From an uncultured Gallionellaceae bacterium (lineage in GTDB: Bacteria; Pseudomonadota; Gammaproteobacteria; Burkholderiales; Gallionellaceae), in NCBI GenBank assembly GCA_903847155.1, contig CAINCU010000053.1:1-64000 (forward strand): 64,000 nt of DNA. Direction: 5' to 3'. The translations under genes were made by a program, and so were the position numbers. The notes under the pieces are model-generated. The model was not told the origin of the DNA, did not search any database, and saw nothing but the letters and a program-made list of their open reading frames with translations. Below, piece after piece: positions 34,651-37,789 of the stretch (the stretch's first letter is position 1; the number at the start of each line of letters is the position of its first letter).

Positions 34651-35418
34651 ATGTTCATAGATTCACATTGCCACCTTAACTTTCCCGGATTAGCGAACAA
34701 TCTGGATGCCGTTCTTGCCAACATGCACGCAAATGATGTCTCTCATGCATTGTGCGTCTCAGTTGATCTTGCGACATTTCCACAAGTGCTTGAATTTGCA
34801 GAACAACACGAAAACTTGTTTGCATCTGTTGGTGTGCATCCTGATTACGAACTGGAAAATGAACCAACGCAGAAAGATTTAGTTCGATTGGCGCAGCATT
34901 CTCAAGTAATTGCCATTGGCGAAACCGGGCTTGATTACTTCCGCCTTACGGGCGATCTTGACTGGCAACGCGAACGCTTCCGAATACATATCAGAGCAGC
35001 AAGGGAATGCGGTAAGCCACTCATCATCCATACACGTTCGGCTGTTGCAGATACTTTGCGCATAATGTCTGAGGAAGATGCGGGGAGCGTCGGAGGGGTG
35101 ATGCATTGTTTTACAGAAAATCTTGATGTCGCCAAAGCAGCAATTGAACTTGGATTCCATATCTCGTTTTCGGGGATTCTGACTTTTAAGAATGCGACCA
35201 TTATTAAAGAGGTCGCCCAGTCAATCCCGCTTGAAAAGATTTTGATCGAAACTGATTCGCCTTACCTTGCACCGACTCCACATCGAGGAAAAACAAATCA
35301 GCCAGCCTTTGTGAAACACGTGGCTGAAGAGATCGCCAGATTAAGGAACATCTCTCTTGAGGAGGTAGGTGTAGCGACTAGTCAGAATTTCAGGAGATTG
35401 TTCCTGAAACAATCGTAA
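34651..35418 (+). CDS. TatD-family metal-dependent hydrolase (YcfH type)
   Basis: The 255-residue TatD DNase-family protein has metal ligands in DSHCHLNFPG, GETGLDYFR, IIHTRSA, MHCFTEN and ETDSPYLAPTPHRGK. It is the usual last member of the tmk-holB-tatD string. Its last 29 bases overlap, on the opposite strand, the end of the fifth gene of the adjacent Xer element, because integration lies just 66 bases downstream. Confidence 0.92.
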   Translation: MFIDSHCHLNFPGLANNLDAVLANMHANDVSHALCVSVDLATFPQVLEFAEQHENLFASVGVHPDYELENEPTQKDLVRLAQHSQVIAIGETGLDYFRLTGDLDWQRERFRIHIRAARECGKPLIIHTRSAVADTLRIMSEEDAGSVGGVMHCFTENLDVAKAAIELGFHISFSGILTFKNATIIKEVAQSIPLEKILIETDSPYLAPTPHRGKTNQPAFVKHVAEEIARLRNISLEEVGVATSQNFRRLFLKQS

Positions 35419-35635
35419 CACTCTGATACAGAATAAAAGCTACTGTTTTGCTGTCTACCTTCCAAGAAGTCTTAATGCTTATTAAGTGCGCATAATGTAT
35501 AGAACGGCCAATATAACCGACTGTATCTATTACGCTTTCTGATGGTAAGGCAAGATTCATAGACGACGAAACTATACCGAGTTTCTGCATGTTCATGATT
35601 TTCCGATCTCCTGTCAATGTGTAGGGTTGTTTCAT
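35390..35635 (-). CDS. Fifth gene of the Xer element, reading across its left attachment site
   Basis: This 81-residue unknown protein starts MKQPYTLTGDRKIMNMQKLG. The ATG overlaps the stop of the preceding gene, and GGAGG lies five bases upstream, so the start is convincing. The frame passes through the left Xer core (encoding SIHYAH) and ends in chromosomal DNA antisense to tatD. Only the first 50 residues or so come from the element. In a circular element the frame would instead continue into the DNA left of the right-hand dif and stay open for about 129 more residues. The native C-terminus is therefore uncertain. Confidence 0.55.
   Translation of the reverse strand: MKQPYTLTGDRKIMNMQKLGIVSSSMNLALPSESVIDTVGYIGRSIHYAHLISIKTSWKVDSKTVAFILYQSVTIVSGTIS
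35485..35512 (+). mobile_element. Left attachment site (hybrid dif) of the Xer element
   Basis: AGTGCGCATAA (XerC arm, one change from dif), then central TGTATA, then GAACGGCCAAT where dif would have a XerD arm. The last part matches the right-hand dif at only 6 of 11 positions. The site shares 16 identical contiguous bases (35486-35501) with the right site in the same orientation. A good XerC arm with a degenerate XerD arm is the pattern known for the TLC-phi attachment site. Confidence 0.85.
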
Positions 35636-35997
35636 TCCGTCCTCCGTTCCGTGTTATCGACAGCCAGACGGAGCCCCTTTTCCGGCTTCTGGTGGCGCTT
35701 CAAATCAGGGCCACGAGTGCCCATCGTGAAGATGTAGGGATAGCGAACATCCCAATATCCATTAGGTTGCATCTGTCCCCAAAGCCGACCAGCCGCCAAC
35801 AAAGCACGTATCCGGCGAGGGCTAACTTTCCAATCCTTTGCCACAAACGAAACCGGAACAAAATTGGCATATGGACCAAATCTATTCGTAGGTTTGCGAT
35901 CAACACAATCAGGCAATCGTTCGAACATCGCTCGATCATCTGATTTGCCATCAAAGACCAAATCTCTGGTTACTTGTGGCTTCTTGATTTTCTTCAT
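35632..35997 (-). CDS. Small winged-helix-like protein of the Xer element
   Basis: This 121-residue basic protein has no family I can name with certainty. The central part, FVAKDWKVSPRRIRALLAAG followed by RLWGQ, NGYWDVRYPY and TRGP, reads like a MerR/excisionase-style helix-turn-helix (a lookup helix, then a wing). The ATG at 35997 overlaps the stop of the XafT gene, and AAGGAGG lies eight bases upstream. It could be a repressor or a directionality factor. That is inferred from its size, charge and place beside XafT. Confidence 0.7.
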   Translation of the reverse strand: MKKIKKPQVTRDLVFDGKSDDRAMFERLPDCVDRKPTNRFGPYANFVPVSFVAKDWKVSPRRIRALLAAGRLWGQMQPNGYWDVRYPYIFTMGTRGPDLKRHQKPEKGLRLAVDNTERRTE

Positions 35998-36467
35998 CGT
36001 GTGGCCTCCTTGTTTTTCGTCACTATTTCGGGAATAGGGAATTGCGTTACTGTTGCTAAATTTGGTTCAGGATCCAGAGCGCGTTTTTTGCGATCAGGGA
36101 AGGGCAGCACGGTTGATGCGGGTTTAACAATGCAGCTTTGCGCGTATGCATGCCGCCACAATCGAGCCTGTGCAAACACATGCTCGATGGTTTCGAGTTG
36201 CCGTGCATCGAAGCCACGGCCGGCAGGGCTGAACAGCTTGGCACCGCGAAGCGTCCAGCCTTCCCATGCAAGACCCGGCAAGGCGTAGCCGCGCAGAATG
36301 CGCAGCATCCGATACGCCATCCAAGGGATGCGTGCGCCGCCAGTCTCCCAGTTCTGAATGGTGCGCACTGTCACATCCAACGCCTCAGCAGCTTCCATGC
36401 GCGTCAGTCCGGCCGCTCTGCGTAGGTCGGCGAAGTCATGCCGATCTATCCAACGGCGGCGGCTCAC
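35994..36467 (-). CDS. xafT: VC1465-family Xer recombination activation factor (XafT-like)
   Basis: The 157-residue protein begins MSRRRWIDRHDFADLRRAAG. It has an N-terminal helix-turn-helix (LTRMEAAEALDVTVRTIQNW, about residues 21-40), then GGARIPWMAYRMLRILRGYALPG and WEGWTLRGAKLFSPAGRGF, the pattern of the VC1465 family. In Vibrio cholerae the TLC-phi member switches on XerCD/dif recombination without FtsK. The GTG start overlaps the upstream stop (GTGA), with GGGAGGG five bases before it. Location between two dif-like sites strongly supports the call. Confidence 0.85.
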   Translation of the reverse strand: MSRRRWIDRHDFADLRRAAGLTRMEAAEALDVTVRTIQNWETGGARIPWMAYRMLRILRGYALPGLAWEGWTLRGAKLFSPAGRGFDARQLETIEHVFAQARLWRHAYAQSCIVKPASTVLPFPDRKKRALDPEPNLATVTQFPIPEIVTKNKEATR

Positions 36468-36670
36468 CAGACCCTCCCTTCAAGAATTTGTGCAGGGGGA
36501 TACACCCACCATTTTTTAGTGACGGCGTGCTTGCGTGCACCGACGATGCGACCTCTCAATGCGAGCTTTGCCAATGATTGCGGCGACTTGCCTTTGAGCT
36601 TGGCGAAGTCTGCAAGGCTCATGCCGCCCTGTTGCTGATGAAGCGTTTCAAGCTGTACGGTTTGGCTCAT
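36464..36670 (-). CDS. Small excisionase-like DNA-binding protein of the Xer element
   Basis: This 68-residue protein contains MSLADFAKLKGKSPQSLAKL followed by ALRGRIVGARKHAVTKKWWVYP, a short winged-helix layout like AlpA/Xis proteins (helix-turn-helix, then a wing ending in an aromatic-Pro strand). The ATG overlaps the preceding stop (ATGA), with GGGGGA five bases upstream. It may act as regulator or architectural partner for Xer recombination. The fold assignment is by pattern only. Confidence 0.65.
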   Translation of the reverse strand: MSQTVQLETLHQQQGGMSLADFAKLKGKSPQSLAKLALRGRIVGARKHAVTKKWWVYPPAQILEGRVW

Positions 36671-37134
36671 AGCGTCCCCCGTTGATACATGCGAAGGTAG
36701 CCATGCTCACGAATCGCTCTGACCTCTTGCAGCTTCTCCCAGAGGGTTGCGGTGCTCTCCATGTCGGCTTCAACGGCCTTGCCCTTTTTGATGGCCTTGC
36801 GCGTAGCGTTGCGGTCTTGCTCGACGGCTGAAAGCAGATTCAAGAATTCGCAGTCGGTCAATTCGAGGTAGTGATACGGCAACAGCTCGAAAACACCTGA
36901 AGCCTTGGCATCCAGTGCGCGTTGCGCACTGGTGATGCCGTTGGCTTCACCTTCGATTGGCTGAACGCCAGGTGAAACTACCTGCGCGCCTTCGGCTTGC
37001 TGGTCTACCAGAGAACGAGGTGCGGCCTTTCCGCGTGTTTTCTGAATCGGTCGAACGACATCGGCAGGCAGGCCATGCGGCCTAGTGCCAACGTCAACGG
37101 CAGACCCTTGGGCTTGCCTCGTGGTTTTACTCAT
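36667..37134 (-). CDS. First gene of the Xer element, unknown function
   Basis: This 155-residue protein begins MSKTTRQAQGSAVDVGTRPH. The N-terminal half looks disordered (Pro, Gly, Gln, Ala). The C-terminal half is charged and helical (DRNATRKAIKKGKAVEADME, then LWEKLQEVRAIREHGYLRMY), possibly a coiled coil. GGGAGG lies just upstream of the ATG at 37134; an in-frame codon 51 bases earlier lacks such a box. I recognise no family. It heads the operon, so its leader (37135-37515) probably carries the promoter. Confidence 0.65.
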   Translation of the reverse strand: MSKTTRQAQGSAVDVGTRPHGLPADVVRPIQKTRGKAAPRSLVDQQAEGAQVVSPGVQPIEGEANGITSAQRALDAKASGVFELLPYHYLELTDCEFLNLLSAVEQDRNATRKAIKKGKAVEADMESTATLWEKLQEVRAIREHGYLRMYQRGTL

Positions 37135-37331
37135 GGCAGCCTCCCAAAAAGCCGAAAACTGGCCGAGTTTCATAGACTTGCGCAAAAAGTCGGTTTTTGG
37201 GCGGTTTTTCGGGTTTTTGAGCTAAAAAGTCGGAACAGTTGTTTTTAGGGGGGTAAAACGATGGGAAGCCAGTAACGGCAAGACTTTCCGTAGGTTTTGA
37301 AGGTGTTTTTGTTGTCTCAATTTGACACAAA

Positions 37332-37356
37332 GGTACGGTATTACTAGTACCGTACC
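37332..37356. promoter_or_regulatory. Inverted repeat in the leader of the Xer element
   Basis: A perfect 9-bp inverted repeat, GGTACGGTA - TTACTAG - TACCGTACC, lies in the gene-free right part of the element, about 200 bases before the first gene. It could be an operator for one of the element's small DNA-binding proteins or a hairpin of a single-strand replication origin. A TTGACA hexamer (37322-37327) abuts it on the plus strand. Confidence 0.5.
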
Positions 37357-37515
37357 TACGACGACCGAAACAGATCGCCAACCGTGCGCGCCGCAGTGCT
37401 CGTGCCTCGCCCGCCGTCGCTCCCGCTGGCGTTTGAAAGTAGGGCGCGACCGCTAATCTTGAGTATGTAAAATGCGAAACCATACCGCGAACCGTTCCGG
37501 CTCTGGTTTGGCTTT

Positions 37516-37543
37516 GGTGCGCATAATGTATATTATGTCAAAT
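37516..37543 (+). other. dif: Chromosomal dif site (right end of the Xer element)
   Basis: XerC arm GGTGCGCATAA, central TGTATA, XerD arm TTATGTCAAAT. This equals E. coli dif at 27 of 28 positions (C for T in the XerD arm). It is where XerCD resolve chromosome dimers at the terminus. GGGCAGGG motifs, the FtsK-guiding consensus, point toward it from both sides at 13615, 14722, 23863, 33061 and 33335 (plus strand) and at 38953 (minus strand). Confidence 0.93.
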
Positions 37544-37592
37544 AAATGAAGTTTAGGAAAAGGCCTGAAGGAATACTCCAAGCCTTTGCGAT

Positions 37593-37667
37593 TGGTGGGC
37601 GGTACTGGGTTCGAACCAGTGGCCCCTGCCGTGTGAAGGCAGTGCTCTACCGCTGAGCTAACCGCCC
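37593..37667 (-). tRNA. tRNA-Val (anticodon CAC)
   Basis: The 75-base gene on the minus strand starts GGGCGGTTAGCTCAGC and folds with acceptor GGGCGGT/ACCGCCC. The anticodon stem is CTGCC/GGCAG around loop TTCACAC (anticodon CAC, reading GUG). A T-arm with GGTTCGAACC and an encoded CCA end follow. It lies 49 bases to the right of dif. Confidence 0.95.
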
Positions 37668-37789
37668 AATCAAGGGCGCGCATTTAATCATACGGATAGA
37701 TATGAGGTCAATTTCTTTATAGGCTATACCCAACTATCGTAGAATGCGCACCTTCATTTCATGCCTCTTTATCTTTACAGGAAAGCAAC

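Follow-up and report, generated by a model that had tools for sequence, protein, structure and literature searches.

Analysis of a 64,000-nucleotide stretch of DNA from an uncultured Gallionellaceae bacterium, a relative of iron-oxidising bacteria (contig CAINCU010000053.1; hereafter, the window), showed a 2,031-bp unit lying between two Xer recombination sites and encoding a protein of XafT type (Table 1). The 16-base sequence GTGCGCATAATGTATA was present twice in direct orientation, starting at 35486 and at 37517. It was one of six 16-mers exactly repeated on the + strand of the window, the others being four at 54.4-54.8 kb and one pair with a spacing of 7 kb. The attachment (att) sites were scored against the arms GGTGCGCATAA / TTATGTYAAAT, which we take to be the dif consensus. 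The left 28-mer, from 35485, had one mismatch in the XerC arm and five in the XerD arm; the right 28-mer, from 37516, had none in either arm, and the centres of the two sites were identical. A first-pass annotation, made from the sequence, had proposed two direct Xer sites sharing 16 bases around a 2031-bp unit, with a left site lacking a proper XerD arm, like that of the Vibrio cholerae satellite TLCphi, and a near-perfect dif on the right. The repeat count, the core spacing and the arm mismatches bear out this description. The cumulative GC skew of the window peaked at 33.5 kb, close to dif, which fits a position near the terminus. The unit was present as a single copy in the host genome (G000, 76 contigs), which encodes XerD (394 bits) and a second XerC/XerD-like protein (275 bits).

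Table 1. Features of the unit and their positions in the 64-kb window.
Feature	Positions	Strand	Description
Unit (2,031 bp)	35489..37519	.	Core-to-core distance
Left attachment site	35485..35512	+	XerC arm, TGTATA centre and degenerate XerD arm GAACGGCCAAT
Right attachment site	37516..37543	+	Full chromosomal-type dif, from consensus comparison and single-dif relatives
Conserved left-end block	35567..35619	.	Holds motif GAAACYRTACCG
Conserved right-end block	37463..37499	.	GTATGTMAAAT and motif GAAACYRTACCGCG; immediately inside the XerC arm
XafT-type gene	35994..36467	-	157 aa; VC1465-family Xer recombination activation factor, helix-turn-helix (HTH) and DUF3653
g1	35632..35997	-	121 aa; weakly supported winged HTH fold of MerR/Xis type
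g3	36464..36670	-	68 aa; weakly HTH-like, below Pfam cut-off
g4	36667..37134	-	155 aa (172 with TTG start at 37185); partial homologues in few elements; overlaps H2
g5	37127..37483	-	118-aa open reading frame (ORF); overlaps H1
Att-crossing ORF	35390..35596	-	ATG at 35596, ribosome-site-like leader; frame passes the left att site into the chromosome
H1 double hairpin	37314..37356	+	GTATTAC at 37338-37344; candidate replication origin for a helper Rep
H2 hairpin	37065..37092	+	AGGCC-ATGC-GGCCT, then AGTGCCAA; candidate packaging signal

The 157-residue protein matched the VC1465 family (NF040522) at 95.6 bits, against a cut-off of 70, which supports the XafT/VC1465 homologue annotated at 35994-36467, and it matched DUF3653 at 60.5 bits (cut-off 22.4). 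Its identity to the Vibrio TLC homologue was 31% over 59% of the protein.

The flank beyond dif was matched in 30 of the 34 same-genus genomes. From these 30, 13 loci were fetched, chosen for having a dif at or close to the matching flank; several of the remaining matching genomes have a dif-like match elsewhere. A single dif followed tatD in all 13 loci, with tRNA-Val within ~0.1 kb of dif in ten and at a distance of 0.3-1.8 kb in G140, G124 and G123; an empty site of this form, one dif between tatD and tRNA-Val, had been expected by the first-pass annotation. It had also named two findings that would tell against it, the gene set without Xer sites and a failed match to the VC1465 family, and neither was encountered in the material examined. 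With Xer sites at the chromosomal dif, an empty dif in relatives and no integrase of its own found, the unit is classed as a putative integrative mobile element exploiting Xer (IMEX).

The unit was compared across 158 genomes of the same family (Gallionellaceae), G000 included. A VC1465-family match above the cut-off was present in 18, and in 14 of these, counting the window, both att cores surrounded xafT at a spacing of 1,125-2,031 bp. Among the remaining four, G013 and G080 had the right dif only, G121 the left core only, and G048 neither core; the xafT copy of G080 contains an in-frame stop. The XerD arm of the left site was degenerate in every one of the 14 elements (5-8 mismatches of 11), and the reading frames of XafT and g1 were kept across them at 35-75% identity. 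These two genes, both encoding HTH proteins, were the only ones common to all 14, and the smallest element (G059) measures 1,125 bp.

In named genomes, 37 loci matched XafT. Fourteen were strong (58-74% identity over most of the protein) and came from Gallionella, Sideroxydans, Ferrigenium and further representatives of that group; the remaining 23 were short HTH matches in other phyla. An order-level sample gave 6 of 399 genomes above the cut-off, three of them from the same family. Look-alike units of about 1.5-1.6 kb were also seen in other bacteria: dif units of 1,556 and 1,497 bp in G204 and G470, from other families of the order (the G470 core with one mismatch), and units of 1,495-1,599 bp ending in dif in the viral contigs L147-L150, with a tandem pair in L147. 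On the far side of dif in L147-L149 lies phage DNA with a PF23343 replication initiator (Rep) and a Zot-like ORF, recognised by eye. A whole-element DNA search of plasmids and phages found nothing similar, a protein search of them with XafT gave distant Vibrio matches only (four phage and two plasmid records), and an Rfam search of 35400-37700 returned the flanking tRNA only. In G205, of the same order, two VC1465-family genes lie 1.4 kb apart (L139), with no dif core found in the search.

The ORFs of the window had no match to a Rep, coat protein, Zot or integrase in NCBIfam, Pfam or PHROGs. Six-frame profile searches of the 158 genomes gave 17 Zot matches in 15 genomes, 21 Phage_CRI matches in 17 and 18 REP_ORF2-G2P matches in 16, none of them within the 14 elements. 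When one large ORF was taken from each of 10 elements, none had a Pfam match at E <= 0.1, and the tblastn matches of inovirus proteins were to phage DNA and two Rep fragments, all outside the elements. The proposal that the unit has neither an integrase nor a replication gene thus agrees with the unmatched window ORFs and with the absence of Rep and Zot matches inside the unit in the whole-genome searches. The proteins expected of an inovirus (Zot/G1P, coat and Rep) were not found to be encoded by the unit.

At one dif in G079, an element of 1,986 bp directly adjoins an inovirus of 6.7 kb that carries Rep, coat, DUF2523 and Zot. This arrangement led us to compare the 14 elements with inovirus regions by blastn, with the att sites masked and the regions trimmed by eye. 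Against 12 Zot-bearing regions (80.6 kb), 12 of the 14 elements scored at least 42 bits, as did none of 420 shuffles. When five viral contigs were added (17 regions), all 14 elements scored at least 42 bits and 13 reached 45 bits, compared with none of 700 shuffles at 42 bits. The matches sat upstream of rep, for several different Reps, or 3' of zot, and in every match row the strand relation to the element genes was the same as that to the phage genes. The elements of G017 and G079 matched 22-61 bp upstream of the G069 Rep, and those of G062 and G074 matched 5-62 bp upstream of the G072 Rep. The two Reps are divergent CRI Reps. The G059 element matched the zot-rep intergenic DNA of G071 and G079. 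No Zot inside the 14 elements, together with shared cis DNA in 14/14, characterises them as probable inovirus satellites.

In G079 and G022 a satellite and an inovirus stand in tandem with shared att cores; in G032 and L147 the two flank a single dif, one on each side. The G079 inovirus (L068 11308-18047) appears complete, with a TLC-like att site, no XafT match and an HTH-type ORF adjoining att. Phage regions on the XerD side of dif (L131 5534-13648 in G032, L124 10830-18328 in G019, and L147 534-7640) end in a site with a degenerate XerC arm, a polarity opposite to that of the satellites, so that satellite and phage can both occupy one dif. That satellites might lend XafT to helpers with TLC-like att sites (G079, G022) was considered as an idea only and set aside, as these phages have their own HTH-like protein beside att; in the G079 inovirus this protein is a weak match.

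The DNA immediately before eight CRI-type rep genes shares the architecture of the H1 double hairpin. A hairpin with GTATTAC, which we take to resemble the nick site of circovirus-type HUH initiators, was present in 7 of the 14 elements and in G013, usually after a smaller hairpin, and the G064 element matches the same phage DNA (H1 type) by blastn. The H1 search pattern, which does not fit the window's own variant, matched once each in eight of the 158 genomes, and its reversed-pattern control matched in none. Seven of the eight matches lay in XafT loci at dif (G013, G022, G032, G089, G103, G130 and G146) and the eighth lay upstream of a phage rep in G118. A similar pattern gave seven matches in viral contigs, two of them copies of the G022 satellite; at the other five a CRI-type Rep, 49-83% identical to that of G022, starts ~27-78 bp onward. 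Together with the rep loci of G022, G118 and G062:C9, which also have H1 upstream, this makes eight rep loci, with a Zot match on the contig at each of the seven searched for it (all but G062:C9). The viral contig L268 has a 127-bp terminal repeat and is therefore probably a complete circle. GTATTAC lies opposite to the rep strand in 8/8 rep loci and opposite to xafT in 8/8 elements carrying it.

The two helices of H1 in ten aligned sequences had 86% paired cells, with eight pairs changed on both sides. The stems contained 17 cells with both sides changed, which none of 500 shuffles equalled; the covariation score, paired cells and double-changed pairs were as high in 0/500 shuffles, and pair types in 3/500. 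Slid versions of the alignment scored lower. The window row is off by one base in the alignment, an offset that biases the test against the structure. The arms of the window's H1 differ from the others (GGTACGG TATTAC ... CCGTACC), with the architecture shared.

The window H2 sequence, CAGGCAGGCCATGCGGCCTAGTGCCAAC, was identical at 27/28 positions to G072 inovirus DNA 3' of zot. The H2 motif was present in 5 of the 14 elements, and the elements of G052, G064 and G130 match DNA adjoining H2 in L263 and L265. The H2 pattern was found in nine viral contigs, two of them being the G022 satellite. Zot matches were present on the H2 contigs L263, L265, L309, L310 and L312, and the Reps found were of CRI, G069 or PF23343 type; L308 and L311 had no match to the phage queries used. 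In G072, G069, L262, L263 and L309, H2 immediately follows zot on its 3' side; in L268, L310 and L312 it is 1.3-1.6 kb further on. Its stems vary as pairs (AGCCC/GGGCT in most, AGGCC/GGCCT in the window and G072, ATCCC/GGGAT in L262 and L268), and its loop and tail are kept across contigs with different Reps. Because it is common to contigs with different Rep types, H2 fits a packaging signal, an assignment guided by its position and by the analogy of phage f1. L309 (100-6098) holds a tandemly repeated inovirus bounded by TLC-like att sites; H2 follows its zot, and its Rep is 70% identical to that of the G079 inovirus.

All five ORFs lie on the minus strand with short overlaps between neighbours. 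A g1 homologue was present in 14/14 elements, and NCBIfam and Pfam searches found no family for it. Its AlphaFold model (nine sequences) had a mean predicted local distance difference test score of 65.6, with a confident part limited to about residues 46-88, which resembles winged HTH proteins, among them BldC, Pukovnik Xis and RacA (best E 0.089, at probabilities of up to 1.00). A class sample searched with g1 at E <= 1e-6 matched in 1 of 274 genomes, namely the window's own, and g1 was specific to this lineage in our searches. A g3 homologue was present in 7 of the 14 elements, counting the window. Searches of NCBIfam, Pfam and PHROGs found no family for g4. For g5, the other 13 elements gave short matches only: 31 residues (G146), 26 residues (G052) and 60 residues (G130), the last on the opposite strand at E 0.59. 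Owing to these short matches and to its overlap with the H1 hairpin, g5 is probably not a real gene. The five overlapping minus-strand genes of the first-pass annotation therefore stand as to ORFs, strand, overlaps and the XafT homologue, with g5 in doubt. The att-crossing ORF, which like the H1 and H2 hairpins was absent from the first-pass annotation, was rejected as a gene, as it is not conserved as protein past its first residues and its start pattern is absent in G064.

The GAAACYRTACCG motif is kept at both element ends and would flank attP in a circular form, and the right-end block also holds the XerD-arm-like ATGTMAAAT. The end blocks are possible accessory sites for XafT or XerD near attP. 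As a phage origin the GAAACYRTACCG motif was rejected; its matches in inoviruses were scattered, with 1-2 mismatches.

What these results add to the first-pass annotation is a family of phagemid-like inovirus satellites, marked by their non-coding DNA, of which the unit is one member. We favour, at a probability of about 0.78, the reading that it is an integrated inovirus satellite, a natural phagemid, for which XafT drives integration at dif and a helper supplies Rep, coat and export functions. A satellite in need of a helper phage had already been suggested, and the cis-acting DNA common to the elements and inoviruses now supports this. As predicted from sequence, the XafT-type protein would activate host XerD, and XerCD would recombine attP, with its degenerate XerD arm, with the chromosomal dif without FtsK. 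The hybrid right end would restore a full dif and so preserve dimer resolution, and g1, as a winged MerR/Xis-type HTH protein, may steer excision or regulate the operon. A helper inovirus Rep could nick the H1-type origin, either after excision or on the integrated copy, and the circle would be replicated as single strands; H2 would let the helper's export proteins package the circle for transfer. On balance, we lean towards a wider class of dif-resident natural phagemids, in which XafT and a winged HTH protein are combined with exchangeable hairpins of ~30-60 bp matching circulating inoviruses, and in which helper specificity may be set by hairpin and not by gene.

Several observations weigh against the satellite reading. 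By blastn, the window copy matches inoviruses around H2 only, and its H1 was assigned from architecture. The window H1 variant is unique in the 158 genomes at <= 3 mismatches and has no exact match in the viral contigs, so that no helper is known that fits the window copy. Profile searches of the window's own genome detected no Zot, CRI Rep or PF23343 Rep; Rep was tested by profile, and virion genes beyond Zot by tblastn with few queries only. H2 overlaps g4. One shuffle of 700 scored 40.1 bits, and 12 of 195 chromosomal control segments reached at least 42 bits in both blastn runs, a control that is weaker than the shuffles because the regions were trimmed by eye. When we sorted these 12 segments, eight lay near dif in inovirus-like loci (G074, G017, G103 and G080), two resembled tRNA ends and two contained Rep coding DNA.

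The small size of the unit, its single copy and the lack of a detected helper Rep or Zot in G000 could also be those of a relic without mobility, left at dif when a TLC-like phage or inovirus lost its rep and virion genes by deletion. The stop in G080 xafT points the same way, as do G038 and G157, in which a weaker XafT homologue ~1 kb from a CRI Rep resembles a Rep-bearing ancestor. Relics would be unlikely to retain frames, att sites and covarying stems, whereas 14 elements of similar size keep the XafT and g1 frames (35-75% identity) and both att sites, and covarying H1 stems and different rep-leader types have been retained; we consider a relic unlikely. The loci in G038 and G157 (L085 and L086, at G038:C39 and G157:C116; 62-65 bits) are possibly Rep-bearing, TLC-like elements, and no full dif was found near the lower-scoring XafT matches in G038, G157 and G030.

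The shared hairpins could instead be terminators or regulator sites, in an IMEX that is moved otherwise, and both H2 and the G032-type hairpin sit after zot, where a terminator is plausible. H1, by contrast, is found immediately 5' of rep, always on the same strand, in 8/8 of the CRI-type rep loci carrying it, and the loop and tail of H2 are preserved across contigs with different Reps. We rate this explanation as slightly less probable than a relic. Least probable is an autonomous small rolling-circle plasmid or IMEX with its own unrecognised initiator, in g4 or another small ORF. Divergent initiators could be missed by profiles, and g4 and the 10 scanned large ORFs are without a family; yet only g1 and XafT, both HTH proteins, are common to 14/14 elements, the 1,125 bp of G059 leave little space for a further gene, and the phage matched by the rep-leader DNA varies from element to element.

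Laboratory phagemids and f1 miniphages carry an origin and a packaging signal, lack Rep and coat, and depend on a helper, as the present unit appears to; unlike it, they are engineered or passage-derived and have no Xer integration module. RS1 of CTXphi differs from the unit: it carries replication and regulatory genes of its own and is not known to have XafT. It is similar in being a satellite of a filamentous phage (PMC11389934). Like the unit, pDolos is a small DNA that exploits an inovirus (PMC11389934, PMC13230959), but it is described as an autonomous plasmid, whereas the present unit sits at dif and no Rep was detected in it. Closest is TLCphi of Vibrio cholerae, which, going by PMC4246890 and the TLC-Kn1 record, shares integration at dif, independent of FtsK, a degenerate XerD arm, a VC1465-family factor and the lack of virion genes. 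PMC4246890 gives TLCphi its own replication module, whereas none was detected in the 14 elements, which have helper-type rep-leader DNA instead; g1, lineage-specific in the searches made, is no part of the likeness. The unit has the intact XerC arm and centre and the degenerate XerD arm of a TLCphi-type site, but no initiator of its own (Cri) was detected, and it is therefore not classed as TLCphi. The dif-integrated inoviruses XacF1, CTXphi and VGJphi also integrate by Xer, the attP of XacF1 being located within an ORF (PMC5666396), and related work is found in PMC9765430, PMC7307601 and PMC3731265. XacF1, CTXphi and VGJphi, unlike the unit, are complete phages that bring replication and virion genes of their own.

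Work by Midonet in 2019 is said to have found XafT-bearing IMEXs widespread in beta- and gammaproteobacteria. Our literature searches, which were largely at title level and had Midonet 2019 outside them, found no account of XafT elements that lack Rep and carry inovirus origins. The earlier suggestion that the unit may be undescribed thus falls for XafT elements as such, which were known already, and may hold for the Rep-less form with helper-type signals, which looks new.

If the favoured reading is true, the unit would be a minimal phage satellite of ~2 kb, with no replication or virion gene, at the site of chromosome dimer resolution. Its family would provide candidate sequences for the origins and packaging signals of environmental inoviruses, whose mapping is otherwise difficult, and would test in nature how small a set of parts can make an element transmissible. 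Such elements would be recognisable from their non-coding DNA and att sites, beyond their genes.

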